A stretch of DNA of 64,000 bases from an uncultured Propionivibrio sp. GTDB taxonomy: Bacteria > Pseudomonadota > Gammaproteobacteria > Burkholderiales > Rhodocyclaceae. The DNA is taken from positions 1,302,001 to 1,366,000 of the forward strand of contig NZ_OY762656.1 of assembly GCF_963666255.1 (NCBI RefSeq). The letters are read 5' to 3'. The notes under the pieces were generated by a model that saw only the letters and a program-made list of their open reading frames with translations, did no database searches and had not been told where the DNA came from. Of this stretch, positions 10,297 through 43,335 are shown piece by piece. The position numbers and the translations under genes are program-made. How positions within the stretch are numbered: position 1 is the first letter of the stretch; every line of letters begins with the position of its first letter.

Positions 10297-11075
10297 GCGC
10301 CATGACCACCCCGCAGATCAGTGTCGTCACCTACAACATCCACAAGGGATTCTCGCAGTTCAACCAGCACATGATGGTGCATGAACTGCGAGAACAGCTG
10401 CGGGCGCTGGCGCCGGACATCGTTTTTCTCCAGGAAGTGCAGGGGCGGCACCGTCGCCATGCCGCGCGCATCGACAACTGGCCGGAGGAGCCGCAGCACA
10501 ATTTTCTCGCTGCCGACGTCTGGCAATCGACGGCGTACGGGCGCAACGTCGTCTACGATCACGGCCACCACGGCAATGCCATCCTGTCCCGATTTCCGAT
10601 CTCGCAGGCCTACAACCAGGATGTGACGCATCTGCGCTTCGAGCGGCGTGGCCTCCTCCACAGCATTCTCCAGGTGCCGGGTCTGGCGCGGCCGCTGCAC
10701 TGCGTCTGCGTGCATCTCTCGCTCTTCGCGCGTTCGCGCCGCCGCCAGCTCGACGCGCTCTCGGGCTATCTCGAGAGCATTCTCGACGACGATACGCCGC
10801 TGATCATCGCCGGCGACTTCAACGACTGGCGCAACGAGGCCGACAGCCTGCTGGCCCAGCGTCTCGGGCTGGTCGAGGCGATCGGTGGCCTGGGCGGCGA
10901 CGGCGGTTCGCCGGGTCGGAGTTTTCCGGCGACGCTGCCGGTGCTGCGGCTCGATCGCGTGTATCTGCGCGGTCTTTCGGTGATGAGCGCCGAGGTGTTG
11001 TCGGGCGATCCCTGGGCGAAAATCTCCGACCACGCGGCGCTGTCGGCGACCTTGTCCTGGCCCGACGCGGCGTGA
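10293..11075 (+). CDS. Endonuclease/exonuclease/phosphatase family protein
   Basis: A 260-residue EEP-superfamily hydrolase. Landmarks are VVTYNIHKG near the N-terminus, the metal-binding Glu in FLQEVQG, the central CVHLSLF, the catalytic IIAGDFNDWR motif, and the C-terminal ISDHAAL with the active-site His. No signal peptide is seen. Members include phosphodiesterases, nucleases and cardiolipin-synthase neighbours; bacterial proteins of this size often occur beside cardiolipin synthase genes, but none is present here. It is translationally coupled to nadA by a GTG start overlapping the stop; an ATG at 10302 is an alternative. Confidence 0.82.
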   Translation: MSAMTTPQISVVTYNIHKGFSQFNQHMMVHELREQLRALAPDIVFLQEVQGRHRRHAARIDNWPEEPQHNFLAADVWQSTAYGRNVVYDHGHHGNAILSRFPISQAYNQDVTHLRFERRGLLHSILQVPGLARPLHCVCVHLSLFARSRRRQLDALSGYLESILDDDTPLIIAGDFNDWRNEADSLLAQRLGLVEAIGGLGGDGGSPGRSFPATLPVLRLDRVYLRGLSVMSAEVLSGDPWAKISDHAALSATLSWPDAA

Positions 11076-11090
11076 TGCCAGGCGACTGAA

Positions 11091-12032
11091 TCAGCCGGCC
11101 GCGATGACGCCCGGATAAATGGCGCGGGCTTTTGGAACGCGCGACATCGACCAGTGGGCGATCGCCCAGCGCCAGAATTCGGGTAGTGGCGCGCCGGTGA
11201 GTTCGCCGGGGGGCGGATGGCCGAGAAAAGCGCAGGCGGCGGCCAGTGCGGCACTGCCTCGCGCCGGATCGACCGCTTCGGCCAGCGTCTGCTTCGACAG
11301 CTTCTCGCCGACGGCGTTGACCACTACCGGCAGGTGCGCATGAACGGGGGTCGGCAGCCCCAGGCAACGTTGCAGCCAGAGCTGGCGGGCGGTTGAGTCG
11401 AGCAGGTCGACGCCGCGCACGACGGTGTTGATGCCTTGCGCCGCATCGTCAACGACGACCGCTAACTGATAGGCATATTGCCCGTCGGCACGCAGCAGCA
11501 CGACGTCGCCGACATCGCGCTCGGGGTTCTGGCGCGTTTCGCCCTGGACGCGGTCGACGAAGCGGATTTCTTCGTCGGGGACGCGCAGCCGCCAGGCGCG
11601 GGCGGCTTTGCCCGGGGCGAGTCCGGCGCGGCAGGTGCCGGGATAGCGCAGGCCGCCGTCGATCGAGCGCGTCGTCGTTGCTGCGGCGATTTCACTGCGC
11701 GAGCAGGCGCAGGGGTAGATCCAGCCATCGACCTGCAGGCGCGAGAGCGCGGCATGGTAGCGGTCGAGGCGTTGGCTTTGAACGACCACCTCGTCGTCCC
11801 ATTCGAAGCCGAATCCCGCCAGTGTGCGAAGGATGTGGTCGGCGGCGCCGGCGACCGTGCGCGGACCGTCGACATCCTCGATGCGCACCAGCCAGTCGCC
11901 GTGGTGCGCACGGGCGTCGAGATAACTGCCCACCGCCGCCACCAGCGAGCCGAAATGCAGCGGTCCGGTGGGGGAGGGCGCGAAGCGTCCGCGATAGCGG
12001 AAGGGCTTCGCCGGCGTGGCAGTCGGGGGCAC
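11091..12032 (-). CDS. gluQ: Glutamyl-Q tRNA(Asp) synthetase
   Basis: A 313-residue class I aminoacyl-tRNA synthetase paralogue that attaches glutamate to queuosine in tRNA-Asp. The HIGH-like motif is [13 protein letters not shown] and the KMSKS-like motif is EKLSKQT. Zinc-binding cysteines are seen in CACS followed by YPGTC. It lacks the anticodon-binding domain of GltX, and its length matches GluQ. The start is a GTG at 12032, 1 bp after the ychF stop, so the two are coupled. Its modification target is not in this window. Confidence 0.92.
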
Positions 12033-30582: not shown

Positions 30583-32118
30583 ATGACCAAGCGAATTCTT
30601 TTCCAGGACACCACTTTCCGTGACGGGTTCCAGTCCGTCTTCGGCGCGCGGGTTTTCACGCGTGACTTCATGCCGGCCGTCGAGGCCGCGGTTGCCGCCG
30701 GCATCACGCACTTCGAAGCCGGCGGTGGTGCCCGTTTCCAGGCGCCTTTCCTGTACTGCGGCGAGTCGGCTTTCGACATGATGGACGAATTCCGCAAGAC
30801 GGTCGGCCCGGATATCCGCCTGCAGACGCTCGCCCGCGGCATCAATGTGGTGGCGCTGGAACAGCAGCCGGCCGACATGATCGACCTGCATGCCAAGATG
30901 TTCAAGAAGCACGGCATGACCCGCATCCGCAACTTCGACGCGCTGAACGACGTCAATAACCTGATTTACTCGGGCAAGTGCATCGTCGACGCCGGTCTCG
31001 AGCACGAAGTCGTCGTCACCATGATGGAATTGCCGCGCGGCTGCTCCGGCGCGCACGATCCCGAATTCTATGCTGGCGTGCTGCGCCAGATCCTCGACGC
31101 CGGCGTGCCTTTCAGCAGCGTCTGCTTCAAGGATGCGTCGGGCACCTCGAATCCGCGCAAAGTGCATGAAACCTTCAAGCTGGCGCGCAAGCTGGTCGGC
31201 GACAAGGTCGAACTGCGCATGCACAGCCACGAGACCTGCGGCACCGGCCTCGCCCAGTACCTCGCCGCGATCGAAGCCGGTTGCGACGGCGTCTGCGTTG
31301 CCCGCGCCCCGCTTTCCGGCGGCACCTCGCAGCCTGACCTGTTCTCGCTCTGGCACGCGCTCAAGGGCACCGACTATGATCTCGGCATCGACATCGACAA
31401 GGTCATGGAAGCCAACCGCGTCACCAAGGAATGCCTCAAGGACTACGACTTCCCGCCCGAGGCGCTGGGTGTCGATTCCGAAGTCATCTTCAGCCCGATG
31501 CCGGGCGGCGCGCTGACGGCGAACACGCTGATGATGCGCGAGTCGAAGACCTTCCACCTCTATCCGAAAGTCATCGAAGCGATGGCCGAGTGCGTCGCGC
31601 GCGGCGGTTTCGGCACCTCGGTCACGCCGGTCTCGCAGTTCTACTTCCAGCAGGCCTATACCAACGTGCTGATGGGCAAGTGGGAAAAGATGACCGACGG
31701 CTACGGCAACATGGTGCTGGGCTACTTCGGCAAGACGCCGGTCGCGCCGGATCCCGAAATCGTCAAGATCGCTTCCGAGCAACTCAAGAAGCCGGTGTTC
31801 ACGGGCGATCCGATCAAGGATCTCGAGCCGGGTATCCCGAAGGCCAAGAAGCTGCTCGAAGACAACGGCTTGCCGACCACCGACGAGAACATCTTCATCG
31901 TCGGCGCGTTTACGACCAAGTCGGGCAACAAGGGTATCGACTTCCTCAAGGGCAACTTCAAGACCTCGGTGCCGAAGAAGGATCCGGCCAAGGCTGCTGC
32001 CCCGGCCCCCGCGCCGGCTGCGCCGGCAAAGGCCGAGCCGACCCCGGATGTCGGCGGCAACCTGTACCACGTATCGATCGCCGGTCAGGCTTTCGACGTG
32101 CGCGTGCGCAGCAACTGA
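30583..32118 (+). CDS. OadA/PycB/transcarboxylase-5S-type carboxyltransferase without biotin domain
   Basis: A 511-residue protein. Residues 1-300 form the metal-dependent TIM-barrel carboxyltransferase domain: Asp14 (TFRDGFQ), Lys183 (CFKDASG, the position of the carboxylated Lys) and His214/His216 (MHSHETCGTG) give the full metal site. Residues 300-450 are the conserved PYC_OADA region (MPGGALTANTL). A Pro/Ala linker (about 467-483) leads to GGNLYHVSIAGQAFDVRV, where the protein stops before any biotinyl-lysine motif. OadA and PycB normally continue into a biotin domain, so a separate biotin carrier is required or the reaction differs. It has its own terminator and no decarboxylase pump genes beside it. 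Confidence 0.82.
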   Translation: MTKRILFQDTTFRDGFQSVFGARVFTRDFMPAVEAAVAAGITHFEAGGGARFQAPFLYCGESAFDMMDEFRKTVGPDIRLQTLARGINVVALEQQPADMIDLHAKMFKKHGMTRIRNFDALNDVNNLIYSGKCIVDAGLEHEVVVTMMELPRGCSGAHDPEFYAGVLRQILDAGVPFSSVCFKDASGTSNPRKVHETFKLARKLVGDKVELRMHSHETCGTGLAQYLAAIEAGCDGVCVARAPLSGGTSQPDLFSLWHALKGTDYDLGIDIDKVMEANRVTKECLKDYDFPPEALGVDSEVIFSPMPGGALTANTLMMRESKTFHLYPKVIEAMAECVARGGFGTSVTPVSQFYFQQAYTNVLMGKWEKMTDGYGNMVLGYFGKTPVAPDPEIVKIASEQLKKPVFTGDPIKDLEPGIPKAKKLLEDNGLPTTDENIFIVGAFTTKSGNKGIDFLKGNFKTSVPKKDPAKAAAPAPAPAAPAKAEPTPDVGGNLYHVSIAGQAFDVRVRSN

Positions 32119-32298: not shown

Positions 32299-32349
32299 AA
32301 AAAAAGCGGAGCGACGCCCCTGGCAGCGATTGGCTGCCGTCGTCCCGCT
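32299..32349 (-). terminator. Terminator of the glycerate-kinase operon
   Basis: On the minus strand, AGCGG-CGAC-GGCAGC-CAATC-GCTGCC-GTCG-CCGCT folds as a long stem with small internal loops and ends in TTTTTTT. It lies about 22 bp after the glycerate kinase stop and faces the convergent carboxyltransferase terminator. Confidence 0.8.
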
Positions 32350-32370: not shown

Positions 32371-33507
32371 TCAGCGCCGCGCCGCCCGGAGAATGCGACA
32401 CAGGCGCATTGTCGCGGCTTCGATGAGTTCTTCGCCGCGCGCCATGCATTCGTCGAGCACCATCGGGCGGTCGCAGATGCTCATGACGGCGTCAATGCCC
32501 TGCGCGAGTGTTTCGTCGGCGCCTTCGCCGAGACTGCCCGACAGGCAGAAGACCGGGACGCGGTGAAGCTTGGCTGCCTTGGCGACGCCGACCGGTGCCT
32601 TGCCAAAAGCGGTCTGGAAGTCGGTGCGGCCCTCGCCGGTGATGACGAAGTCGGCGCCTTTGACAATTTCGCCGAAGCGAACGGCGTCAAGCACGATCTC
32701 GACGCCGGGGCGGAGCCGTGCCGGGGAAAAGAGCAGCAATCCGGCGCCCATCCCGCCGGCGGCGCCGGCCCCCGCAGTGTCGGCGACGCTGCGGCCGGTG
32801 GCGGCCTGGGCGATGGTGGCGAAGTGCCAGAGCGCCGCGTCGAGTTCGGCGACGAGTGCCGGCGTGGCCCCTTTTTGCGGGCCGAAGACCGCCGAGGCGC
32901 CGCGCGGGCCGCAGAGTGGATTGTCGACGTCGCAGGCGACCAGGATGTCGGATTCGGCGAGACGTGGGTCGAGCCGGGATAAGTCGACGGTCGTGAGCCG
33001 GGCGAGGGCGCCGCCGCCGTCGGGGAGTTCGCTGCCGGCGGCATCGATGAAGCGCACGCCGAGCGCGCGCGCCATGCCGGCGCCGCCATCGTTGGTGGCG
33101 CTGCCGCCGATGCCGATGATGATCTTGCGCAAGCCGGCATCGAGCGCGGCGCGGATGAGTTCGCCGGTGCCGTAGGTCGTTGCCCGCAGCGGATCGCGCT
33201 CTTCACTGGCGAGCAGCGGCAGGCCGGAGGCCGAGGCCATTTCGATGACGGCCGTGCGTCCGTCGCCGAGGATGCCCCAGTGCGCGCGGATGCACCGGCC
33301 GAGCGGGTCGCTGACGTCCTGGTGACGCAACTGACCGCCGGTTGCGGCGACCAGCGCTTCGACCGTGCCTTCGCCGCCGTCGGCGATCGGCATTTTGAGT
33401 ACGTCGGCATCAGGATGGATTTTCAGGATGCCGCGTTCCATGGCCTGCGCCACGCCCAGCGCCGAAACGCTGCCTTTGTATGAATCGGGAGCGACGATGA
33501 TGCGCAC
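32371..33507 (-). CDS. garK: Glycerate kinase
   Basis: A 378-residue GckA/GarK-type (class II fold) kinase that phosphorylates D-glycerate, usually to 2-phosphoglycerate. It shows IIVAPDSYKGSVSA, PIADGGEGTVEAL, GIGGSATNDGGAGMARALG, ACDVDNPLCGPRGAS and VITGEGRTDFQT. The start is a GTG at 33507 with AGGAGG 8 bp upstream. It is the last gene of the hydroxypyruvate/TRAP operon. It would take glycerate from the reductase GarR into lower glycolysis. Confidence 0.93.
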   Translation of the reverse strand: MRIIVAPDSYKGSVSALGVAQAMERGILKIHPDADVLKMPIADGGEGTVEALVAATGGQLRHQDVSDPLGRCIRAHWGILGDGRTAVIEMASASGLPLLASEERDPLRATTYGTGELIRAALDAGLRKIIIGIGGSATNDGGAGMARALGVRFIDAAGSELPDGGGALARLTTVDLSRLDPRLAESDILVACDVDNPLCGPRGASAVFGPQKGATPALVAELDAALWHFATIAQAATGRSVADTAGAGAAGGMGAGLLLFSPARLRPGVEIVLDAVRFGEIVKGADFVITGEGRTDFQTAFGKAPVGVAKAAKLHRVPVFCLSGSLGEGADETLAQGIDAVMSICDRPMVLDECMARGEELIEAATMRLCRILRAARR

Positions 33508-33570
33508 CTTGGTTTCCTCCTCAATGGTCCAACCCGCCGGCCGCAGAGCGGAGACTCTGCAGCCGCCGGC

Positions 33571-34536
33571 TCAGGCTTTGCGACGCAGGGCCAGTTCGGC
33601 CTTGCTGACGATGTGGGCGGCGCTGAGGCCGTACTTCGCCAGCAGCTTCTCGTAATCGCCCGATTCGGTAAAGGTGTCCTCGATGCCGACGAATTCCATC
33701 GGTACCGGACATTGCCGGCTCAGCACCTCGGCGACGGCGCTGCCGAGGCCGCCGTAGACGTTGTGCTCCTCTGCCGTGACAATGGCGCCGGTCTCACGTG
33801 CGCACTGGAGCAACAAGCCGACGTCGATCGGCTTGATCGTGTGGATATTGACGACACGCGCCTTGATGCCGCGCTTGGCCAGAATCTCGGCGGCTTCGAG
33901 CGCCTTGACCAGCATGTAGCCGGTGGCGACGATGGTCAGGTCGCCGCCTTCGACGAGCGTGACGCCCTTGCCGATTTCGAAGTTGTAGCGTGCCTTGTCG
34001 AGGATCACCGGCACTTCGGCGCGGCTCAGGCGCAGATAGACCGGGCCCTGGTGGGCAGCGACCGCGCGCGTGGCGAGTTCGGCCTCGACCGGGTCGGAAA
34101 CCGAGACCACTGTCATGTTTGGCAGCGCGCGCATGAAAGCGATGTCGGCGATGGCGTGATGGCTGGCGCCGTCGTACGAGTCGGAGAGTCCGGCATAGGT
34201 GCCGGCGAGCTTGACGTTAAGGCCGGTGTAGGCGATCAGGCTGCGCACCGGATCGGCGGCGCGCAACACCATGAAGGCGGCGAAGGTGTTGGCGAAGGGA
34301 ATCTTGCCGGCGGTGGCGAGGCCGGCGGCCATGGCGACCATGTTGGCTTCGGCGACGCCGACGTTGTAGTAGCGTTGCGGGAATTCCTTGCCGAAGATGA
34401 TGCTCTTGCTCGAACTGCCGACGTCGGCATCGAGCGCGACGATGTCGGGATTCTCGCGCCCGAGTTGCGCGAGCGTCTCGCCATAGACGTCGCGTATGGC
34501 TCTCTTGGTTGTTGCCATTGTCATGCTTGCGCTCAT
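33571..34536 (-). CDS. Split transketolase, C-terminal subunit
   Basis: A 321-residue protein holding the pyrimidine-binding and C-terminal domains of transketolase. It includes RDVYGETLAQLG, the catalytic-Glu segment YNVGVAEANMVAMAAGLA, and TFAAFMVLRAADPVR. The C-terminal transketolase domain begins about 195 (GDLTIVATGYMLVKALEAA). Together with the partner gene it would form a TPP enzyme. In the split form, such pairs serve specialised carbon routes (for example apulose phosphate or sulfo-sugar transketolases) rather than the pentose phosphate pathway. It overlaps the N-terminal subunit gene by 4 bp. Confidence 0.9.
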   Translation of the reverse strand: MSASMTMATTKRAIRDVYGETLAQLGRENPDIVALDADVGSSSKSIIFGKEFPQRYYNVGVAEANMVAMAAGLATAGKIPFANTFAAFMVLRAADPVRSLIAYTGLNVKLAGTYAGLSDSYDGASHHAIADIAFMRALPNMTVVSVSDPVEAELATRAVAAHQGPVYLRLSRAEVPVILDKARYNFEIGKGVTLVEGGDLTIVATGYMLVKALEAAEILAKRGIKARVVNIHTIKPIDVGLLLQCARETGAIVTAEEHNVYGGLGSAVAEVLSRQCPVPMEFVGIEDTFTESGDYEKLLAKYGLSAAHIVSKAELALRRKA

Positions 34537-35366
34537 GCCGTCACCCCCAGTTCCTTCATCGCATTTACATATTCATCCTTGCCGATCGGCTTGCCATGCC
34601 AGGCGCTCTTGCCTTCCATGAAGGAGACGCCCTTGCCCTTGACGGTCCTGGCGACGATCACCGTCGGTACGCCCTTGACGGTAGCCGCCAGGTCGACGGC
34701 GTCGGCGATCGCTTCGACGCAGTGGCCATCGATCTCGATGACGTTCCAGCCGAACGCGCGCCACTTGGCGCCGATGTCGCCCATCGGCATGATCTCGCTG
34801 ACGGTGCCGTCGAGCTGCACGCCGTTGTTATCGACGATGACCAGCAGGTTGTCGGCGGCGAACTTGGATGCCGACATCGCGGCTTCCCAGACGATGCCTT
34901 CCTGCAGTTCGCCATCGCCCATCAATACGACGGTGCGGTAATCGCGTCCGTCGAGCCTGGCCGCCATGGCCATGCCAAGGCCAGCGGGCAGACCGAGGCC
35001 GAGCGGTCCGGTCGAGAGCTCGACGCCGCAGGTCTTCTTCGCGCAGGGATGACCTTGCAGGTGGCTGTCGAGTTGGCGCAGCGTGACGAGGTCGTCCTGC
35101 GGGAAAAAGCCGCGGGCGGCGAGAATCATGTACAGCATCGGCGCAGCGTGGCCCTTGCCGAGGATGAAGCGGTCGCGATCCGGATCCTTCGGATTCTTCG
35201 GGTCGACGCGCAGCTTGTCGAAGTACAACGTTGTCATGATCTCTGTCGAGGACAGCGATCCGCCCGGGTGCCCGGTCTGGATGCCGTACAGGAGCTTGAT
35301 CAGGTCGCGACGCAGCCCGAGGCAGGTCTCTTCGAGGAAGCGCTTTCTTTCGTTGCTCAAACTCAT
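34533..35366 (-). CDS. Split transketolase, N-terminal (TPP-binding) subunit
   Basis: A 277-residue subunit with the pyrophosphate-binding domain: TGHPGGSLSSTEIMTTLYF, LGKGHAAPMLYMILAARG, SHLQGHP, GPLGLGLPAGLGMA and the Mg/TPP motif GDGELQEGIVWEAAM...VDNNGVQ. The start ATG at 35366 has AGGAG 7 bp upstream. The active-site histidines of transketolase are retained (GKGHAA, SHLQGHP). Coupled to the C-terminal half by ATGA. Confidence 0.9.
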   Translation of the reverse strand: MSLSNERKRFLEETCLGLRRDLIKLLYGIQTGHPGGSLSSTEIMTTLYFDKLRVDPKNPKDPDRDRFILGKGHAAPMLYMILAARGFFPQDDLVTLRQLDSHLQGHPCAKKTCGVELSTGPLGLGLPAGLGMAMAARLDGRDYRTVVLMGDGELQEGIVWEAAMSASKFAADNLLVIVDNNGVQLDGTVSEIMPMGDIGAKWRAFGWNVIEIDGHCVEAIADAVDLAATVKGVPTVIVARTVKGKGVSFMEGKSAWHGKPIGKDEYVNAMKELGVTA

Positions 35367-35409
35367 TGCGTTCTCCTGGTAATTCGTGAATTGCATGCCG
35401 CGCGGCGCG

Positions 35410-36456
35410 TCAGTCGCCGATGTCGATGACAACCTTCATGACGCTTTCCGGATGGGTGTCGATGTGCGGGTAGACGGCTTCCATCTGGCGGATGTCGAAG
35501 TGGTCGCTGATCAGTCGCGAGGTGTCGATCTTCTTCTGCGTGATCAGGTCGATCGCCCGCTGGAAGTCTTCGCGCAGGTACATCATGATGCCGAGCATGT
35601 CGACCTCGCGACGCTGGAAGAGCGGCAGTTCGACCTCGACCGGTTCCTTGTAATTGGCGACGATGACGAGTTTCGACGAGCAGCGCGCGGCGGCGACGGC
35701 TTCGTTGAAGATTGCTTTGACGCCGGCGCAGTCGATGATGATGTCGGCCTCGTTCTCGCCGAACTCTTCCATGATGACGTCCTTGAGCTGGCGGCCGCGC
35801 GTGTCGATGCAGGCGTGGATGCCGCAGTCGCGGGCGATGGCGAGACGGGTCGGGTTGATGTCGGTGATGACCACCTTGCGCGCGCCCGAGGCGATGGCTA
35901 CCTGCGCGACGAGGTTGCCGATCGTGCCGGCGCCAAGGACGATGACATTGGTGCCGGTGATGTCGCCGCAGCGCCGGATGGCGCCGGTCGCCACCGCTGT
36001 CGGCTCGACCAGCGAGCCCTCGTCGAAACTCATCGTCTCGGGCAGGCGCAGTACTTTCGATGCCGGCACCGCAAAGTATTCCGAGAACATGCCACCGGTA
36101 TGAACGCCGTAGACCTTGAGGTTCTTGCAGACGTTGGGGTGGCCGCTGCGGCAGGGCGCGCATTCGCCGCAGAAAACCTGGGGCTGGACGGTGACCTTGT
36201 CGCCTTCCCTGAGCCCGGTCACCTTGCTGCCGACCTTGGCGACGACGCCGGCGCCTTCGTGTCCCTGAACCACCGGGAAGCGCATGTACTTGTGCTTGCC
36301 GTGGTAGATCTGGATGTCCGAACCGCAGACGCCGACGCGCTTCATCCGGATCAGTACGTCGTCATCACCGATGTCGGGAATCGGCGTCTCGAGGAAGCTC
36401 ATCTTGAAGGCTTCAGTCATTTTTACTTGCAACATCTTGGTCTCCAGAGTCTTCAT
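35410..36456 (-). CDS. Zinc-dependent medium-chain dehydrogenase (sorbitol/threonine dehydrogenase-like)
   Basis: A 348-residue MDR enzyme. Catalytic zinc ligands are in GVCGSDIQIYHG and GHEGAG; the structural zinc site is CGECAPCRSGHPNVC. The Rossmann motif GAGTIGNLVAQVA is followed by an acidic residue (ITDINPTR), suggesting NAD rather than NADP. It should oxidise a secondary hydroxyl of a polyol or sugar acid to a ketone. Its position between the TRAP transporter and transketolase suggests it prepares a keto substrate for carbon-carbon cleavage. Substrate unknown. Confidence 0.88.
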   Translation of the reverse strand: MKTLETKMLQVKMTEAFKMSFLETPIPDIGDDDVLIRMKRVGVCGSDIQIYHGKHKYMRFPVVQGHEGAGVVAKVGSKVTGLREGDKVTVQPQVFCGECAPCRSGHPNVCKNLKVYGVHTGGMFSEYFAVPASKVLRLPETMSFDEGSLVEPTAVATGAIRRCGDITGTNVIVLGAGTIGNLVAQVAIASGARKVVITDINPTRLAIARDCGIHACIDTRGRQLKDVIMEEFGENEADIIIDCAGVKAIFNEAVAAARCSSKLVIVANYKEPVEVELPLFQRREVDMLGIMMYLREDFQRAIDLITQKKIDTSRLISDHFDIRQMEAVYPHIDTHPESVMKVVIDIGD

Positions 36457-36466
36457 TCGTTTTGCA

Positions 36467-37735
36467 TTACTTGAGCGCTTGCGGCAGCCACAGCGAGACC
36501 CAGGGCACGTAGGTCAGGATGATCAGCGTCAGCAGTAGAACGCCGACATAAGAACCGACTTCGCGCACGACGACGCCGAAGCGCACCTTGGTCACCGAGC
36601 TGGCGACGAAGAGCAGAACGCCGACCGGTGGCGTCAGCTGGCCGATCGTCAGATTGACGAGCAGGATGATGCCGAAGTGGGTCAGATCGATGTGGAAGAG
36701 GTTGAGCACCGGGATCAGGATCGGCACCAGGATGATCATGATCGCGATCGTCTCCATGAAGCAGCCGAGAACCAGCAGGACGATGTTGAGCATGATCAGC
36801 ACGACCCAGGGCTTGTCGGTGGCTTGGGTCAGCGCGGCTGAGAGCATCTGCGGCGCCTGCTCGATCCCGAGGAACCAGCTGAAGGGCGCGGCGGCGGCGA
36901 CGATGAGCAGGATCACCGCGGTTTCCTTGGCCGTCTGCAGCAGGATCGCAGGGATGTGAGACCACTTCAGCGTCCGGTAGACGAAGAGGCCGACGAGCAA
37001 CGAATAGAAGGCGGCGACGCCGGCGATCTCGGTGGCGGTGAAGACGCCCATGCGGAAGCCGCCGAGGATCAGCACCGGCATCATCAGCGCCCAGGCGGCT
37101 TCGTGAAAGGCCGTTTTGAGGCGGCTCCAGGCGAAGTCGGCGTCTTTCGGGAACTGGCGCTTGTGAGCGATGTAGGCGGTCAGCACGACCATCGCGCCGG
37201 CCATCAGCAATCCTGGCAGCAGGCCGGCCCAGAACAGGTCGCCGAGCGAGATGTTGGCCTGCCAGGCGTAGATGACCATCAGCGTTGAGGGAGGGATGAT
37301 CGGTCCGAGCGTCGCGGCGGCGGCACAGAGGGCGGCGCCGAAGCCGTTGCCGTAGCCAGCCTTCGAAAACTCCGGCACGAAGACGCGCGAGAGGGCGGCG
37401 CAGTCGGCGACCGAGGAGCCCGAGATGCCCGAGAGGAAGACTTCGCCGACGACCGCCGTCTGCGCGATGCCGCCGCGGATATGACCGATGAAGGCGCGGG
37501 TGAAACCGAACAGGCGCTCGCTGATGCCCGAGTCGTTCATCAATGAACCGGCCAGCGTGAAGAGCGGGATGGCCAGCAGCGGGAAGGACTGGACGCCGGT
37601 GACGACGCGCTGGGCGACGACCGAGAGCGGGAAACCTTCGATACCGATGACGAGCATCGAGGCGCCGAGCATCGCCAGGGCGATCGGCAGGCCGATCAGC
37701 AGCAGGGCGATGAAAGAGAGACCGAGGATGATCAT
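36467..37735 (-). CDS. dctM: TRAP transporter large permease (DctM type)
   Basis: A 422-residue membrane protein with about 11-12 helices, the ion-coupling subunit of a tripartite ATP-independent periplasmic transporter. Motifs include FLSGISGSSVADCAALSRVF and LGPIIPPSTLMVIYA. It overlaps dctQ by 4 bp and precedes the dehydrogenase by 10 bp. It uses a sodium gradient in known members. Acts with the P and Q proteins encoded upstream. Confidence 0.94.
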   Translation of the reverse strand: MIILGLSFIALLLIGLPIALAMLGASMLVIGIEGFPLSVVAQRVVTGVQSFPLLAIPLFTLAGSLMNDSGISERLFGFTRAFIGHIRGGIAQTAVVGEVFLSGISGSSVADCAALSRVFVPEFSKAGYGNGFGAALCAAAATLGPIIPPSTLMVIYAWQANISLGDLFWAGLLPGLLMAGAMVVLTAYIAHKRQFPKDADFAWSRLKTAFHEAAWALMMPVLILGGFRMGVFTATEIAGVAAFYSLLVGLFVYRTLKWSHIPAILLQTAKETAVILLIVAAAAPFSWFLGIEQAPQMLSAALTQATDKPWVVLIMLNIVLLVLGCFMETIAIMIILVPILIPVLNLFHIDLTHFGIILLVNLTIGQLTPPVGVLLFVASSVTKVRFGVVVREVGSYVGVLLLTLIILTYVPWVSLWLPQALK

Positions 37736-38268
37736 TCGACACCGCCTTCCTTCATGACCAGCACTTCGGTTTCGCCGCGGAAGACCGGGGCGGCGCCCTG
37801 TTCCATCCAGGCGCGAAGCACGTGGGTAAGCATCAGGATCAGGCCGGCTGGCATGGCGGCGGCAAACCAGGCCTTGGAGACGCCCATCATCGGCGAATCG
37901 ACGACGAGTTCCTGCAGCACCTGGTCATAACAGGCCCAGATGGCGACGATGATGATGATGGCGCCGATGACGACGGTCAGTGCGTTCAGCCAGTTGAAGG
38001 CGGTTTTGCGGAAAATCGGCGCCATGACGTCGATGCGGATGTGCATCTGCGAGCGGACGGCTGCGGCGGCGCCGAGGAAGACCATCCAGGTGAGCAGGGC
38101 GACGATCAGTTCCTCGCCCCAGGTCAGCGGGTTGTTGAAGACGTAGCGCAGGGCGACGGCGAGGACCACGAGTCCGGCAATGAGCCCGTGCAGGACAATG
38201 ACGAGCAGGTCCTCGATCGAGGCGATGACATCGTCAATGCGGAAGAACAGTGAGCGGAAGGAATCCAT
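37732..38268 (-). CDS. dctQ: TRAP transporter small permease (DctQ type)
   Basis: A 178-residue protein with four predicted membrane segments (about 14-40, 48-70, 88-112, 128-150) and the NPLTWGEELIVALLTWMVFLG motif of DctQ proteins. I start at the ATG at 38268, which has AGGA 5 bp upstream; the ATG at 38274 is too close to that site. It is preceded by a strong intercistronic stem-loop. Confidence 0.9.
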   Translation of the reverse strand: MDSFRSLFFRIDDVIASIEDLLVIVLHGLIAGLVVLAVALRYVFNNPLTWGEELIVALLTWMVFLGAAAAVRSQMHIRIDVMAPIFRKTAFNWLNALTVVIGAIIIIVAIWACYDQVLQELVVDSPMMGVSKAWFAAAMPAGLILMLTHVLRAWMEQGAAPVFRGETEVLVMKEGGVE

Positions 38269-38300
38269 TGGCATCCTAGCGGGGTATGTTTTTGTCGTAG

Positions 38301-38361
38301 CCGCTCCCGCCCGCCGCGTCGAGGCGCGGCGGTCCTGCCTCGTACCGGGCAGCAGGAGCGG
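38301..38361 (-). other. Intercistronic stem-loop between dctP and dctQ
   Basis: An inner perfect stem CCGCCGCG/CGCGGCGG is enclosed by CCGCTCC/GGAGCGG. It lies just after the dctP stop and has no T run. Such structures after a binding-protein gene commonly protect its mRNA and give more P than Q-M protein. Confidence 0.55.
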
Positions 38362-38370
38362 GTTGGGCGC

Positions 38371-39390
38371 TTACTTCGTCGAGTCGACAGCGGCCTTGAC
38401 GCGTTGCAGGTTTGCCGTGCCCCAGCGCGCTTCGAGGTTCTTGTAGGCCGGCGCCATCTTGGCGGCGAAGGCGGCGCGATCGGGTTTGTCGTTGATCGTC
38501 GTCTTGCCGGACTTGCGGATCTCCTCAAGCATCTTGGTTTCCTGTTCCTGCTGCAGGCGTGTGTTCTTTTCCGAGATTGCCGCCGCTTCGTCGAGCAGGA
38601 TCTTCTGCAGTTCGGGCGAGAGCTTCTCGAGCGAGCGCTTGTTGATGATGAAGGTATTGTTCTGCAGCATGTGCTTCGTCATCGACAGATGCCCCTGCAC
38701 TTCGTAGAACTTGCGGGCATAGATCGTCGGGATCGGGTTTTCCTGGCCGTCGACGAGCTTCTGCTGCAGTGCCGTGTAGACCTCGCCGAAGGGAATCGGC
38801 GTCGGTGCGGCGCCCATGGCGCGGATCATTTCCACCCAGACGGGCGACTCGGGTACGCGGATCTTGAGGCCGGCCATATCTTCGGGTTTGTTGACGGCCT
38901 TGGTGCCGGTGGTCAGGTTGCGCCAGCCCCAGTACCAGATCTTGGTCAGCATCAGGACGTTGTGCTTGTCGCGCAGTTCGTCGAAGATCGGCTGGAAGGC
39001 CGGGCCGCGGATGACTTTTTCGGCTTGCGCCCAGTCGTTCCAGAGGAAGGGGGCGCTGGCGATTTCAAGCGCCGGCACCAGATTCGACAGTGCCGCCATC
39101 GACGGCGAGGTGATGTCGAGCGCGCCCGACTTGACCTGCTGGATCAGGTCGACTTCCTTGCCGAGCTGTTCGCCTGGGAATACCTTGATCGTGATTTCGC
39201 CCTTGGTCTTCTTGGCGACGTTATCGGCGAATTCCTGCTCGAGTTCGGCGGCGAGCTCGCCATTGACGTGAACGTGGCCGAAGCGCAGCGTGGTCGCCGC
39301 CTGGGCGGCGAAAGGCAGGGCGCTCAGTGCGGCCAGCACGGCGGTGGCGAGGGTCGAGGCGAACAGTTTCCGGGGGGTGGAACGATGCAT
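38371..39390 (-). CDS. dctP: TRAP transporter substrate-binding protein (DctP type)
   Basis: A 339-residue periplasmic protein with a signal peptide ending near AAQAATTLRFG. The DctP fold is shown by FADNVAKKTKGEI, FPGEQLGKEVDLIQQVKSG and the ligand region GLKIRVPESPVWVEM, which contains the conserved carboxylate-binding Arg of the family. This implies an acidic substrate such as a sugar acid, although some members bind other compounds. AGGAGG precedes the ATG by 7 bp. Acts with the Q and M subunits just downstream. Confidence 0.93.
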   Translation of the reverse strand: MHRSTPRKLFASTLATAVLAALSALPFAAQAATTLRFGHVHVNGELAAELEQEFADNVAKKTKGEITIKVFPGEQLGKEVDLIQQVKSGALDITSPSMAALSNLVPALEIASAPFLWNDWAQAEKVIRGPAFQPIFDELRDKHNVLMLTKIWYWGWRNLTTGTKAVNKPEDMAGLKIRVPESPVWVEMIRAMGAAPTPIPFGEVYTALQQKLVDGQENPIPTIYARKFYEVQGHLSMTKHMLQNNTFIINKRSLEKLSPELQKILLDEAAAISEKNTRLQQEQETKMLEEIRKSGKTTINDKPDRAAFAAKMAPAYKNLEARWGTANLQRVKAAVDSTK

Positions 39391-39476
39391 GGTGAACCTC
39401 CTTGTGATCAAGTTATGGTTTTTTACGTCATCGAACAGCATCGGAGCGACCGGCGCTGCCGGTCACCCACGGGGAA

Positions 39477-40373
39477 TCAGGCTTTGCGGCGGACTTCGGT
39501 CTTGGCCAGCTTCTCGTAGAAACGGACGATGGCGCTGTGGTCGCAGGCGCCCATGTCGTCGCACTTGAGGGCTTGCAGCGTTTCCATGACGTTGGCCGTC
39601 AGCGGCGTCGCGACGTTGAGCGCGTGGGCCGTGTCGAGGGCGTTCTGCAGATCCTTGATGTGCAATTCGATGCGGAAGCCGGGCTTGAAGTTGCCGTCGA
39701 GCATCATCGGCACCTTGGCGTTCATCACCGTTGAGCCGGCGAGGCCGCCCTTGATGGCGTTGAAGACGGCTTCCGGATCGACGCCGGCCTTGGTCGCCAG
39801 CACGAAGGCTTCGGAGACCGCGGCAATGTTGAGGGCGACGACGATCTGGTTGGCAAGCTTGGTGACATTGCCGGCGCCGATGTCGCCGACCAGAACGACG
39901 GAAGCGCCCATGCACTTCAGGATCGGCTCGCACTCGGCGAAGACAGCCGCATCGCCGCCGACCATGATCGACAGGCTCGCGTCGATGGCCTTCGGTTCGC
40001 CACCGGAAACCGGTGCGTCGATCATCTTGACGCCCTTGGCCGCCAGTTCCTTGGCGACTTCCTGCGCTGCTTGCGGCGCGATCGAGCTCATGTCGACGAC
40101 GATGGTGCCCGGCTTGGCGCCCTCAGCCACGCCATTGGCGCCGAGGACGACGGTTTTCACCTGCGGCGAGTTGGGTAGCATCGTGATGATGATGTCCGTC
40201 TGCGCGGCGACGTCCTTCGGCGTGGCGGCCGACTTGGCGCCCTGGGCGACTACTTCCGCGACGGCGGTCGCATTGATGTCGCAGACGGTCAGGTCGTAGC
40301 CCGCCTTCAGCAGGTTTTTACTCATGGGCTTGCCCATGATGCCGAGTCCGATGAAACCGATTTTCTTGCTCAT
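39477..40373 (-). CDS. garR: 2-hydroxy-3-oxopropionate (tartronate semialdehyde) reductase
   Basis: A 298-residue beta-hydroxyacid dehydrogenase. The NAD(P) motif is IGFIGLGIMGKPMSKNLLKAG, shown in part as GLGIMGKPM. The substrate motif DAPVSGGEPKA and the catalytic Lys in NVTKLANQ are present. It likely reduces tartronate semialdehyde to D-glycerate. A 3-hydroxyisobutyrate- or tetronate-dehydrogenase role is possible in this family, but the presence of glycerate kinase and a hydroxypyruvate isomerase homologue favours GarR. A 7-bp stem-loop (39448-39464) follows the stop. Confidence 0.88.
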   Translation of the reverse strand: MSKKIGFIGLGIMGKPMSKNLLKAGYDLTVCDINATAVAEVVAQGAKSAATPKDVAAQTDIIITMLPNSPQVKTVVLGANGVAEGAKPGTIVVDMSSIAPQAAQEVAKELAAKGVKMIDAPVSGGEPKAIDASLSIMVGGDAAVFAECEPILKCMGASVVLVGDIGAGNVTKLANQIVVALNIAAVSEAFVLATKAGVDPEAVFNAIKGGLAGSTVMNAKVPMMLDGNFKPGFRIELHIKDLQNALDTAHALNVATPLTANVMETLQALKCDDMGACDHSAIVRFYEKLAKTEVRRKA

Positions 40374-40397
40374 GACCTCTCCAGGTATGTTGTGGGT

Positions 40398-41201
40398 TCA
40401 GAGGGAATAGCCGTAGTCGCGGATCCAGCCCAGCGATCCGGCGGTGTTCGGGGTGGGGGCGTATTCGAGACCGATGTAACCGTCATAACCGGTCGCCATG
40501 AATTCGGCGAGCAGCCAGCGGTAGGCGATTTCGCCGGTACCCGGCTGGTGGCGGCCGGGGTTGTCGGCGATCTGGACGTGTGCGATGCGTGCGAGGTTCG
40601 TCTTCAGGATGCCGGCGAGCTCGCCTTCCATGCGTTGCGCATGATAGACGTCGTACTGCAGGTAGGCGTTGGGGTGGGCGACGGCATCGAGGATGTCGAG
40701 CACCTTGCCGGTCGTGTCGAGGAAGAAGCCCGGCACGTCGCGCGAGTTGAGATGTTCGACGAGCAGGCGGATGCCGGCCTGGCCGAGCGCCTCGGCGGCG
40801 TAGCGCAGGTTGGCGACGAGTGCTGCGCGCTGCTCGGCGACGGGCACGTCGGGCAGCGTCTTGCCGACCAGACAGTTGATCTGCGGTACGCCAAGCGCCT
40901 GCGCGTACTCGATCGCGCGGGCGACGCCGGCGCGGAATTCTTCCTGGCGTGCCGGATTGACGGCGATGCCGCGTTCGCCGGCGCCGAAGTTGCCGGCCGG
41001 CAGGTTGATCAGCACCAGCTTGAGCCCGTTGTCCGTGAGTGCCGCCTTCAGGTCGGCGATCGTGTAGTCGTACGGGAACATGAATTCGACCGCCTTGAAG
41101 CCGAGCTTCGCAGCTGCCGCGAAGCGTTCCATGAATGGCACTTCCTGAAACAACATCGACAAATTGGCCGAAAACTTCGGCGTCGCACCCGCTGCGCTCA
41201 T
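40398..41201 (-). CDS. hyi: Hydroxypyruvate isomerase family protein (Hyi/OtnI)
   Basis: A 267-residue TIM-barrel protein of the xylose-isomerase-like superfamily. Motifs: FSANLSMLFQEVPFMERFAAA, LLVEHLNSRDVPGFFL (catalytic Glu), LQYDVYHAQ (metal Asp and His) and IGLEYAPT (second Glu). It interconverts hydroxypyruvate and tartronate semialdehyde, or 2- and 3-oxo-tetronates in the closely related OtnI. It is the first gene of the operon, 64 bp downstream of the predicted sigma-54 start. The ATG at 41201 has AGGGG upstream. Confidence 0.88.
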   Translation of the reverse strand: MSAAGATPKFSANLSMLFQEVPFMERFAAAAKLGFKAVEFMFPYDYTIADLKAALTDNGLKLVLINLPAGNFGAGERGIAVNPARQEEFRAGVARAIEYAQALGVPQINCLVGKTLPDVPVAEQRAALVANLRYAAEALGQAGIRLLVEHLNSRDVPGFFLDTTGKVLDILDAVAHPNAYLQYDVYHAQRMEGELAGILKTNLARIAHVQIADNPGRHQPGTGEIAYRWLLAEFMATGYDGYIGLEYAPTPNTAGSLGWIRDYGYSL

Positions 41202-41275
41202 GTCTGCATCCCCTGTTGTTGGTTGATGGTGCGGCGGCATTCTGGCGCCGTCGCAAAAAACAATGGGATGACTAT

Positions 41276-41292
41276 GGCAATAACCGGGCCAG
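41276..41292 (-). promoter_or_regulatory. Sigma-54 promoter of the hyi operon
   Basis: On the minus strand CTGGCCCGGTTATTGCC matches TGGCAC-N5-TTGC, with one mismatch in the -24 box (C for A). The -12 TTGC is exact and the GG-GC spacing is correct. A sigma-54 activator gene lies directly upstream. The start site would be near 41265. Confidence 0.75.
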
Positions 41293-41368
41293 TGCCGTGG
41301 TTAAGGCGTATGACGTTGTTTATAAGGTTTTTTTGTTTTGGCGCGAGGAAGCAGAGCGAGTGCTTTTA

Positions 41369-41401
41369 TGTTTCATATTGAAACACGTGTGTTTCAATAT
41401 G
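41369..41401. promoter_or_regulatory. Activator-binding palindrome (enhancer) for the hyi operon
   Basis: A perfect 13-bp inverted repeat, CATATTGAAACAC-GT-GTGTTTCAATATG, spans 41374-41401. A third TGTTTCA copy at 41369-41375 forms a second overlapping dyad, TGTTTCA-TAT-TGAAACA. It is centred about 120 bp upstream of the predicted start, the classical enhancer distance. It is probably the site for the PrpR-like protein encoded 12 bp away. Confidence 0.8.
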
Positions 41402-41412
41402 CGCCCATGGGG

Positions 41413-43335
41413 TCAGCTGTCGTCGCGGGCCGGCCGGGTGATGCGCCGGTTATCGCGAATCCGGCGCCACAGCGTTGTGCGTCCGAGACCGAGGATGGCG
41501 CTACTCGCCTTGACCGAGCCGCCGGTCTTGTCGAAGACGTGGGCGATGTATTCGTCTTCGAGTTCCCTGAGCGTCATGTCGTCCGGGAATTGCGCCTGCC
41601 CGGGGTCCGTCGCGACCGGCGATTGCGGCATGCCTTCGAGATCGTCGATACCGACGACACGGCGGTCGGTGACAACGACGGCGCGCTCGATCATGCCGCG
41701 CAGTTCGCGCACATTGCCCTTGAACTGGTAGCGGCGCAGGTAGGCGAGTGCTTCGGGGCTGAGGCTCAGGCGGCCTTTCTGGTAGCGCCCGACGAACTCC
41801 TTGAGGAAATGCAGGCTGAGGAGTTCGATGTCCTCGACGCGTTCGCTCAGCGGCGGAATGTAGAGGCTCAGGATAGCGATGCGGAAGAACAGGTCGCCGC
41901 GGAACTGGTGCGCGTCGACGAGTTGGCGCAGGTCGCGGTTGGTCGCGCAGATGATGCGCACGTCGACCGGGATCAGCTTGTCGCCGCCGAGGCGCATCAC
42001 CTGCTTCTCCTGCAGGACGCGCAGGAGCCGGCCCTGCAGCAGCACCGGCAGTTCGCTGATCTCGTCGAGAAAGATCGTACCGCCATGGGCCATCTCGAAG
42101 AGGCCGGCCTTGCCCTTGCGCACGGCGCCGGTAAACGAGCCCTCGACGTAGCCGAAGAGTTCGCTCTCGATCAGCGTTTCCGGCAGCGCCGCACAGTTGA
42201 TGGCGACGAAGGGTGCGTTCCGGCGTGGGCTCGCGCGGTGGATGCTTTGCGCGAACAGTTCCTTGCCGACGCCGGACGGTCCAAAGATCAGTACCGAGGC
42301 GTCGTAGGCAGCGAATTTTTGTGCGCTGCGGATGCAGTCGGCAATCGCCGCGCTGCCGTGGATGATGTCGGAGAACTGGTATTGGGCGACGAAGCCGCGT
42401 TCGGCGAGCTTGATGCGGATTTTCTGTTCGAGGCGCTGGACGTCGGTGATGTCCTGATAGGTGGCGACGGCGCCGCGTACCTCGCCGTCGACGACGACGG
42501 GGATGCGGCTGGCGGCGACGACCGTCTGGTTGTTCAGCGTCTGGATGTCGCCGATGACCGATTGTTCGTTTTCGAGTACGGCCAGCAGCCGCGTTTCCGG
42601 GATAACCTCGGTGATCTGCCGGCCCATCGCCTCGTGACGGCTGTAGCCGGTGATCTTTTCCGAAACGCTGTTGAAGACGGTGATGATGCCGCGATTGTCG
42701 ATGGCGATGATTCCGTCATGGACGAAGTCGATGATCGCGGAGAATTGCTGGGCCTTTTCCTTTTGCAGTCGCGAGGCGTAGAGAATGTCCTTGGCTTGCT
42801 GGATGGCGATCTGCATCGCCTGCGGACCGGATTGGACCAGCGAGGCTTTGCCGTTCGAACGCTGTGCCGCCATCTTGACGTTGTTGTCGCCGACGAAGCT
42901 GCGGATGCCTTGGCCGAGCAGGCGCCCGACTTCCACTTCGATGTCGCTGTGCTTGGTGATTTCGCAGCAGACGGCCGGCAGGCCCATGACCCTGGCGATC
43001 GTCTCGGCGCCGTAGATGACGTTGCGGAAGCCGATCACGCCGATCGGACCGTCGATGCCACTGGCCTTGACTTCGGAGAAGGCGTCGATGAGGTCGAAGG
43101 CGTTGACCTTGACTTCGACGGTCGGAATGTCGAATTCGCTGCGGATCAGTTCGAAGAAGCCGCCGCGCGAGACAATCACGCGGGCGCCGGCGTCGATGGC
43201 CGAGCGGGCGCGGGTGAGCACGTTGCCCGGTTCGGCTTCGAGCAGGTCGACATTGCTGTAGCCGTTCTCGGCGATGATGCGGTGGGTGACATCCGCCATC
43301 GCTGAGAACGGGGTGACGACGACGATTTCCTTCAT
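41413..43335 (-). CDS. PrpR-type sigma-54-dependent transcriptional activator
   Basis: A 640-residue regulator. Residues 1-190 form a PrpR N-terminal sensor domain (ligand-binding in propionate regulators). A PAS domain follows (about 200-310). The AAA+ domain (about 330-565) has Walker A GPSGVGKE, Walker B TIFLDEIS and the sigma-54 contact loop as GSFTGA rather than GAFTGA. The C-terminal Fis-type HTH is [13 protein letters not shown]. It reads in the same direction as the hyi operon and directly precedes it, so a small-molecule effector related to the operon substrate probably controls it. Confidence 0.92.

Follow-up and report, generated by a model that had tools for sequence, protein, structure and literature searches.

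The window analysed here is a stretch of 64,000 nucleotides from the genome of an uncultured Propionivibrio species (contig NZ_OY762656.1). All ten open reading frames between positions 32371 and 43335 lie on its minus strand and were assigned to families using NCBIfam and Pfam profiles (Table 1). Nine of them follow each other co-directionally behind a sigma-54 promoter and the gene for a PrpR-type activator, coding for a protein of the hydroxypyruvate isomerase family (hyi), tartronate semialdehyde reductase (garR), a TRAP transporter (dctPQM), a Zn-type dehydrogenase of the MDR superfamily, a split transketolase (tkN and tkC) and glycerate kinase (garK). The original prediction of a nine-gene operon preceded by an activator gene was borne out by the reading frames, the families and the recurrence of the block in other genomes. 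Judging from the orthologues, dctP probably starts at 39390 and tkN at 35366. GarR scored far below the cut-off of the model for L-threonate dehydrogenase (NF043037; 210 vs. 350 bits), and Hyi reached 320 with the 2-oxo-tetronate isomerase model OtnI (NF043033; cut-off 325), which overlaps with the Hyi model.

Table 1. Features of the operon region, with positions referring to the window.
Feature	Position	Strand	Evidence
prpR-type activator	41413..43335	-	PrpR_N, PAS, sigma-54 AAA, HTH_8 (Pfam/NCBIfam)
Palindrome TTGAAACACACGTGTTTCAA, probable activator site	41378..41397	.	Single occurrence in window, 0 expected in shuffles
Sigma-54 -24/-12 promoter TGGCCCGGTTATTGC	41277..41291	-	Identical in P. 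dicarboxylicus (L004)
hyi, hydroxypyruvate isomerase family, optional member	40398..41240	-	TIGR03234 361 bits, cut-off 353
garR, tartronate semialdehyde reductase	39477..40373	-	NF008592 494 bits, cut-off 397; TIGR01505 422, cut-off 341
dctP, TRAP solute-binding protein	38371..39390	-	TIGR00787 255 bits, cut-off 175
dctQ, TRAP small permease	37732..38274	-	PF04290
dctM, TRAP large permease	36467..37735	-	TIGR00786 412 bits, cut-off 268
MDR Zn-type dehydrogenase, proposed pentonate 4-dehydrogenase	35410..36456	-	ADH_N + ADH_zinc_N
tkN, transketolase N-terminal subunit	34533..35366	-	PF00456; 6yak N-chain E 1e-84
tkC, transketolase C-terminal subunit	33571..34536	-	PF02779 + PF02780; 6yaj C-chain E 3e-94
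garK, glycerate kinase	32371..33507	-	TIGR00045 493 bits, cut-off 168
Terminator-like hairpin with T run, weak	32302..32321	-	Not above chance

The predicted arrangement of one promoter with an enhancer palindrome held up well. Elements resembling the -24/-12 promoter are also found ahead of the operon in the other four orthologous loci read (L020, L021, L022 and L023), and a comparable one is located upstream of tkN in the paralogous cluster L079. A strict sigma-54 pattern missed the operon promoter because it allows only A or T behind TTGC; elsewhere it matched twice, which is at chance level. The palindrome is unique in the window and probably the binding site of the activator; related GAAAC/GTTTC repeats are present upstream of the orthologous loci. 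In L003, L004, L005 and L021, the operon is likewise preceded by a prpR orthologue, and the activator is probably the inducer sensor of the operon. As for the terminator claimed at the end of the operon, we did find a hairpin followed by a T run, but it is no better than expected by chance (9 terminator-like hairpins observed vs. 9.1 expected in the region).

Searching for the same neighbourhood revealed the block in six genomes of the genus, including that of the window, which argues against a chance arrangement, but the full set of nine genes is not constant. The conserved order is prpR-[hyi]-[garR]-dctPQM-mdr-tkN-tkC-[garK], with variable members in brackets; in the orthologous loci, tkN immediately follows the dehydrogenase gene. 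The hyi gene is the first operon gene in the window, L004 and L021, and is absent from L003 and L005. While garR occurs without hyi in the L003/L020 operon and in the clusters L080, L083, L089, L092 and L144, both are missing from the L005/L022 operon, and the operon of genome G637 (L003 with L011/L097) contains neither hyi nor a garK gene behind tkC. At E ≤ 1e-75, the dehydrogenase matched in one of the 399 genomes searched from the order and in 8 of 395 from the family; of these eight, six (74–100% identity) contain the transketolase block, which is missing from the other two (about 40%). In plasmids, a single match of 44% to the dehydrogenase was obtained at E ≤ 1e-60, and tblastn showed no transketolase gene next to it. 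A second type of GarR-linked transketolase was confined to the window genome among 369 genomes of the class (E ≤ 1e-100), with one plasmid match of 50% at E ≤ 1e-70. The window tkC matched in 86 of 296 genomes of the spirochaete phylum (E ≤ 1e-75), and an LSD-type loop (see below) was present in three of the best 30 loci, which were the ones examined.

The adjacent tkN and tkC genes code for a ThDP-binding N chain and a pyrimidine/C-terminal chain with 6yak/6yaj as best PDB matches; by these features, TkN and TkC form a split transketolase, yet not one of the standard phosphate-site type. The site in TkC consists of R15, S42, F85, Y114 and R172 with a loop LSDSYD, corresponding to RSFYR in the window and its orthologues instead of the RSFHR of sugar-phosphate enzymes, with the two Arg, the Ser and the Phe retained. 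An L/M-S-D loop was found in 16 of 66 loci for transketolase C-subunits. The residue equivalent to His461 is kept in none of these 16 (11 Tyr, 5 Ser) vs. 41 of the 50 others, and 9 of the 16 have a gene for GarR (identity of 70% or more) no further than 7 kb away vs. none of the 50, 32 of which are visible over less than 4 kb. These counts are not independent because the Tyr- and Ser-containing transketolases form two clades. As His is also missing from nine of the 50 loop-less enzymes, including three from relatives of Rhizobium/Agrobacterium, where they belong to FGGY-kinase clusters, its loss alone was dropped as a marker of GarR linkage. Three full-length transketolases among the 36 tkC matches of one search were excluded, and three weaker matches without a locus (G784 C35, G784 C40 and G637 C24, of which G637 C24 contains a stop) were not counted. 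Six of 298 plasmid records entered the reading.

The pairing with GarR is also apparent in the window genome (G000, 98% complete), where the three garR genes sharing 80% identity or more are all located in split-transketolase clusters. The genome contains no glyoxylate carboligase (Gcl) above the TIGR01504 cut-off (six matches, the best with 326 of 711 bits), as is the case for four of the six cluster-bearing genomes including this one. Its GarL gene (glucarate aldolase, C2:921094) lies about 410 kb away, next to its own GarR-like gene of 46% identity. In seven genomes, 5 of 14 close garR genes were not seen next to a split transketolase, and no window-like garR or garK was seen in L095, L142 and L143. 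The ten genes of the operon region include none for GarL, GudD or GarD, OtnK/OtnC, a sugar kinase family other than glycerate kinase, an aldehyde dehydrogenase family, or an SQ isomerase/SqwI model. An acidic substrate, previously proposed from an Arg residue of DctP, is supported by the alignment of Arg/Arg/Asn positions with those of sialic-acid-binding proteins (SiaP), which we take to be ligand residues, suggesting a TRAP binding protein of the carboxylate type. An AlphaFold model of DctP from four sequences (the window and three relatives with a long enough dctP) reached a pLDDT of 36 and was not used, and a scan of viral contigs yielded no further DctP relatives.

From the gene content and its conservation, the families of the parts, the altered phosphate site and the recurrent pairing with GarR, we infer a route; its substrate and inducer, the ketol acceptor and cofactor used, and the sequence and direction of its steps are predicted as follows. 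DctPQM would import a pentonate, which the MDR dehydrogenase would oxidise with NAD+ at the C4 hydroxyl group to 4-ketopentonate (HOCH2-CO-CHOH-CHOH-COO-). The split transketolase would then transfer C4–C5 as a ketol unit to an aldose phosphate, for example glyceraldehyde 3-phosphate, forming xylulose 5-phosphate and releasing C1–C3 as tartronate semialdehyde. GarR would reduce the latter to D-glycerate with the NADH from the dehydrogenase step, and GarK would phosphorylate D-glycerate to phosphoglycerate, which enters glycolysis. Hyi may rescue or equilibrate hydroxypyruvate, and PrpR with sigma-54 would turn on the operon when the substrate or one of the intermediates is present. Such a scheme would leave no step unaccounted for and would dispense with a dehydratase, an aldolase and a sugar kinase. 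Transketolases usually act on 3S,4R ketoses, which predicts D-arabinonate or L-xylonate as the substrate; both would give the same 4-keto compound. Plant ascorbate breakdown yields L-xylonate and L-lyxonate, according to the accessible text of PMC11066805, which makes a natural supply plausible. We give pentonate uptake and catabolism by one oxidation, transketolase cleavage and the glycerate branch about an even chance of being the function of the operon. The original prediction of a dehydrogenase producing a keto compound for transketolase cleavage and the glycerate branch is supported by the conserved neighbourhood, the active-site residues and the paralogous operon, except for the entry via hydroxypyruvate: Hyi is optional and was abandoned as a central enzyme because it is missing from several clusters, and the garR clusters without hyi make tartronate semialdehyde the better direct product.

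Alternatively, L-threonate or erythronate may be oxidised at C3, and the transketolase may take C3–C4, leaving glyoxylate for conversion via Gcl to tartronate semialdehyde and further by GarR and GarK. Hyi and GarR are the classical companions of Gcl, P. dicarboxylicus contains a cluster (L084) of gcl, a GarR-like gene of 46% identity, a TIM-barrel protein and a split transketolase, and the Hyi of L079, scanned as a translation lacking the first residues, exceeded the OtnI cut-off (337 vs. 325) and stayed just under that of Hyi (352.6 vs. 353.45). However, the L084 transketolase retains the phosphate-site His (RSYHR), and a glyoxylate product would give GarR no substrate in the four genomes without Gcl above the cut-off, making this route unlikely. 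We consider it similarly unlikely that hydroxypyruvate is the cleavage product, or a transketolase donor losing CO2, with Hyi as the key step before GarR. Transketolases do accept hydroxypyruvate, hyi leads three of the operons, and in Treponema L007 and spirochaete L141 this kind of transketolase is accompanied by a D-2-hydroxyacid dehydrogenase, a combination equally compatible with hydroxypyruvate; but cleavage of a 2-ketose by transketolase gives an aldehyde rather than a keto acid, and hyi is lost from two orthologous operons (garR being kept in one) and from five other transketolase–GarR clusters.

The nearest NCBIfam models of the dehydrogenase are IolM, PRK10083 and Tdh, and their names were discarded as substrate evidence because every score was below cut-off. 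Among its closest solved relatives are several dehydrogenases for sorbitol, xylitol and L-arabinitol, as expected if a sugar alcohol were oxidised to a ketose (xylulose, erythrulose) for cleavage and the glycerate for GarR and GarK came from elsewhere. This is improbable, since GarR could not use glyceraldehyde or glycolaldehyde, the ten genes include no aldehyde dehydrogenase family, DctP aligns with carboxylate-binding proteins, and in Treponema the homologue follows a TctCBA-like transporter (recognised by eye). Just as improbable is a hexonate, branched or sulfonated acid with only loosely linked glycerate genes: L-idonate 5-dehydrogenase and the PRK10083 family are among the dehydrogenase's relatives (below cut-off), and hyi, garR and garK do vary, but C6 keto-acids would yield tartaric semialdehyde, which GarR does not take as a substrate, the RAFDR motif of sulfo-transketolases is absent, and GarR recurs with transketolases of the window type.

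In favour of the pentonate route, the paralogous operon L079 shares 98.3% DNA identity over 1688 bp with the window in the transketolase genes, and 85%, 74% and 73% identity in garR, garK and prpR, compared to about 34% in the dehydrogenase and about 31% in DctP. Going by these values, one transketolase would handle two different substrates. The DctP of L079 is nearest to 4ovt and 4o8m, whose ligands are presumably L-fuconate and L-galactonate, the former being the 6-deoxy form of the latter. L-Galactonate and D-arabinonate have a common C2–C4 configuration, as given in the accessible part of PMC6336799. We tentatively suggest, at somewhat less than even odds, a general modular sugar-acid catabolism in Propionivibrio and some Treponema/spirochaetes, combining exchangeable dehydrogenases with a dedicated split transketolase and GarR/GarK. 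MDR, Tdh-like MDR or SDR enzymes would convert different aldonates to keto-aldonates, the transketolase, its phosphate pocket naturally rebuilt (loop LSD, Tyr or Ser in place of His461), would cleave these, and GarR/GarK would gather the C3 piece as glycerate; one genome may harbour three such modules, two with a common, homogenised transketolase. No description of such catabolism was found in the literature searched. Likewise, the system had been put forward as undescribed, which agrees with our searches within the scope of open-licence literature.

If true, the operon represents a little-known class of sugar-acid pathways, with oxidation and C2 transfer replacing dehydratase/aldolase chemistry, and the route would be suited to fermenters because it is redox-neutral down to glycerate. 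Among known systems, the apulose-4-phosphate transketolase pathway for D-apiose, reportedly described by Carter et al. in 2018, also features a split transketolase encoded in an operon for sugar catabolism, but is said to require an isomerase and a kinase and to give different products; the absence of a sugar kinase besides glycerate kinase sets the window operon apart. In the glycerate branch of glyoxylate or glucarate/galactarate degradation, tartronate semialdehyde is supplied by Gcl or GarL and converted via glycerate to phosphoglycerate by GarR and GarK as proposed here, whereas neither Gcl nor GarL is encoded in the window operon, which does not match either pathway. The dehydrogenase with OtnK/OtnC of the LtnD-OtnI-OtnK-OtnC pathway for L-threonate/erythronate was not found among the ten genes either. 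Herbaspirillum huttiense likewise uses a pentonate without a sugar kinase, but its D-arabinonate dehydratase route starts with dehydration to 2-keto-3-deoxypentonate, according to the available part of PMC6336799. The SqwGH sulfo-transketolase pathway shares the split transketolase, an unphosphorylated anionic ketose, glyceraldehyde 3-phosphate as acceptor and an altered phosphate motif, but in the accessible text of PMC11659671 the ketose is made by an isomerase, the product is sulfoacetaldehyde, the scheme is without GarR/GarK, and the motif is RAFDR rather than RSFYR. Cleavage of 5-keto-D-gluconate, for which engineered E. coli TktA was used in Gluconobacter and which is proposed in plants, involves a C6 substrate and an engineered or putative enzyme, and the available portions of PMC12016104 and PMC11066805 describe no natural bacterial operon for it. 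It resembles the proposed reaction in that a keto-aldonate serves as ketol donor and a semialdehyde acid is formed: the E. coli variant R358I/H461S/R520Q, changed in the same residue as the window enzyme, showed 55% more activity on 5-keto-D-gluconate, yielding tartaric semialdehyde (available text of PMC12016104), and the operon may offer natural keto-aldonate transketolases for biocatalysis.

The ten open reading frames named in the original prediction (minus strand, 32371-43335; prpR-hyi-garR-dctPQM-mdr-tkN-tkC-garK) agree with the window, whose host genome comprises 4.0 Mb at 98% completeness, and their gene families were upheld by NCBIfam and Pfam profiles. The promoter and palindrome predicted for this operon were likewise both found 5' of hyi. 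Similar -24/-12 elements stand before the operon in each of the other five orthologous loci that were read (L004, L020, L021, L022 and L023), and one is located before the transketolase genes of a paralogous cluster of the same genome (L079). The predicted terminator is present as a terminator-like site, but it is weak. A plus-strand gene convergent with the operon end (30583-32118) codes, by eye, for a pyruvate/oxaloacetate carboxylase-type subunit.

Control elements of the operon (positions in the window)
Feature	Position	Location	Remark
-24/-12 element	41291-41277	upstream of hyi	
Palindrome	41378-41397	upstream of hyi	single occurrence within the window

The closest named relative of the operon is that of Propionivibrio dicarboxylicus DSM 5885 (L004), which contains all ten genes with protein identities of 70-97%. 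At E <= 1e-75, the Zn-type (MDR) dehydrogenase was detected in 8 of 395 family genomes, every one in the window's genus. Several of the genomes used for comparison in this analysis are MAGs, and G663 and G784 are apparently one genome, as are G731 and G785. The transketolase block accompanies it in six of these eight genomes (window counted), while the other two contain dehydrogenases of about 40% identity without the block. The neighbourhood search suggested in the original prediction recovered the whole block, all ten genes, in three of the six genomes (window, L004/L019 and L021), but one or more of hyi, garR, the TRAP genes and garK were not seen in the others. The operon of genome G637 (L003/L020) lacks hyi, and the contig continuing it (L011/L097) shows no garK after tkC; L005/L022 contains neither hyi nor garR; and L006/L023 starts with mdr immediately after the sigma-54 element, with no window-like TRAP genes found upstream on this 7-kb contig, which stops within tkC. 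The gene garK follows tkC in four of the five genomes where sequence beyond tkC is available. Because of this variation among the six genomes, we regard mdr-tkN-tkC as the constant core. Genes of the fetched loci were called with simple codon-usage or ORF scripts, and identities were measured against the window proteins. The Accumulibacter garK of L005 (12112-13240) is spread over two reading frames, through a frameshift or an error of assembly, and tkC of G637 is followed by two minus-strand genes, the nearer of which resembles by eye the altronate/galactarate-dehydratase family. The core also occurs in Treponema (L007; 48-55% identity), after a TctCBA-like transporter (by eye) and a D-2-hydroxyacid dehydrogenase, a neighbourhood which again suggests an acid as substrate.

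A transketolase takes a C2 unit from HOCH2-CO-CHOH-R and leaves R-CHO. For R-CHO to be tartronate semialdehyde, R must be CHOH-COO-; the donor would therefore be a 4-ketopentonate, which the MDR dehydrogenase may form from a pentonate. GarR, by its family score the reductase for tartronate semialdehyde, would use the NADH from the MDR step, and GarK would phosphorylate the resulting glycerate. Judged from gene content, other sources of tartronate semialdehyde in the window's genome are either absent or separate: no glyoxylate carboligase (Gcl) scored above the cut-off there (one does so in P. dicarboxylicus and in G785, two of the six genomes with the cluster), and GarL is encoded separately with its own 46% GarR-like neighbour. 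The hyi gene is missing from several related clusters, and the only Hyi homologue in the genome of L003 shows 49% identity and is encoded outside the operon.

The combination of split transketolase and GarR recurs in other settings. L080 (window's genome, C2:628000-647900) and L083 (P. dicarboxylicus) contain TRAP genes, a GntR-like gene (by eye), tkN, tkC, garR (81%) and an SDR dehydrogenase, and their transketolases belong to a second clade with Ser for the phosphate-site His. L092 (G637) consists of dctP, MDR, an Asp/Glu-racemase-like gene, tkN, tkC, garR and dctQM, the Treponema locus L089 of garR, tkC, tkN, MDR and two TRAP sets, and in L144 garR adjoins tkC. Among 14 GarR genes of at least 68% identity from seven genomes, nine are part of split-transketolase clusters, among them all three from the window's genome; the nine include that of the G637 operon, which is divided between two contigs. 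The remaining five are located on G784 C24, G710 C65 (two), G781 C60 (transketolase about 10 kb off) and G785 C128 (at the contig edge). Asp/Glu-racemase-like proteins adjoin split transketolases repeatedly in Propionivibrio and spirochaetes (L081, L088, L092, L141, L142 and L143; PF01177 in the four scanned, one under the cut-off, L088 and L142 by eye). In L084 of P. dicarboxylicus, a split transketolase is accompanied by glyoxylate carboligase, a TIM-barrel protein and a GarR-like reductase of 46%; this locus is a candidate for a transketolase route leading from tetronate to glyoxylate. Dihydroxyacetone-kinase-like genes (by eye) occur in L082, next to a split transketolase and a gene resembling 2-hydroxyacid dehydrogenases, and in L098, next to garK and two GarR genes.

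Alignment with the human and C. hydrogenoformans transketolases showed that TkC of the window retains the equivalents of Arg358, Ser385, Phe434, Asp469, His473 and Arg520 and has Tyr in place of His461 (positions in E. coli transketolase numbering). Its loop reads LSDSYD, where many other transketolases have, e.g., ITVGED; the second GarR-linked clade combines Ser at position 461 with LSDFGD. We compared 66 C-subunit loci, namely 30 of 36 tkC matches (omitting three enzymes of full length and another three matches that were weaker), the best 30 spirochaete loci and six plasmid loci. The L/M-S-D loop is present in 16 of them, with Tyr in 11, Ser in five and His in none, whereas 41 of the 50 loop-less loci retain His461. 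A GarR of at least 70% identity is encoded within 7 kb in 9/16 loop-bearing loci vs. 0/50 others, one of which has a GarR-like gene of 47%. Of the 50, 32 were seen over less than 4 kb; among loci seen over at least 10 kb the linkage is 9/15 vs. 0/17. A quick tree of 36 rows placed the seven rows with Tyr and the five with Ser in two separate clades, each with 100% SH-aLRT, so these represent two lineages rather than 16 independent cases; the forks between them were weaker, and the program issued a long-branch warning. RAFDR, the motif reported for sulfofructose transketolase, occurs in a split transketolase of Treponema MAG G782 (L096; read on L068).

The paralogous operon L079 (C2:1384500-1404400) is located about 41 kb past that of the window, the transketolase genes being about 58 kb apart. 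Its proteins share 96% (TkN), 97% (TkC), 81% (GarR), 73% (GarK), 61% (PrpR), 51% (Hyi, scanned without its first residues) and 24-37% (DctPQM) identity with those of the window, while its MDR dehydrogenase shares 34% and is nearest to the Tdh model. At the DNA level, the tkN-tkC pair is 98.3% identical over 1688 bp (L079 positions 9829-11516), flanked by an otherwise diverged operon (garR 85%, garK 74%, prpR 73%), and the tract looks like the product of gene conversion or recent replacement. The transketolase thus appears to have been homogenised or retained in common by two operons that differ in their substrate-specific parts, as would be expected if one keto-acid arises from two epimeric acids.

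Transketolases canonically use ketoses of 3S,4R configuration as donors. Applied to a pentonate, this rule places the C2-OH left and the C3-OH right (Fischer, pentonate numbering), and thus points to D-arabinonate or L-xylonate, both of which would give one 4-keto-acid; we name this pair as a possible, rather doubtful substrate assignment. The nearest PDB entries of the L079 binding protein are 4ovt (E 2e-78) and 4o8m (E 9e-75), which we take to be L-fuconate and L-galactonate complexes, L-fuconate being 6-deoxy-L-galactonate. DctP of the window has no close solved relative, the best match being a sialic-acid-binding protein (E 4e-52). According to PMC6336799, L-galactonate and D-arabinonate have their C2-C4 configuration in common.

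Among the open-licence papers listed by literature searches, none describes, judging by title and opening abstract, how pentonates could be converted to tartronate semialdehyde by a transketolase; subscription work may exist. An engineered E. coli transketolase (R358I/H461S/R520Q) is described in PMC12016104 as more active on 5-keto-D-gluconate, yielding tartaric semialdehyde. We propose that the operon route belongs with the known transketolase-based catabolism of unphosphorylated anionic ketoses, as a variant of it. In sulfo-transketolase, which acts on an unphosphorylated sulfonated ketose, a change of RSFHR to RAFDR is reported in PMC11659671, and the replacement of His461 by Tyr in TkC of the window would be the same kind of change.
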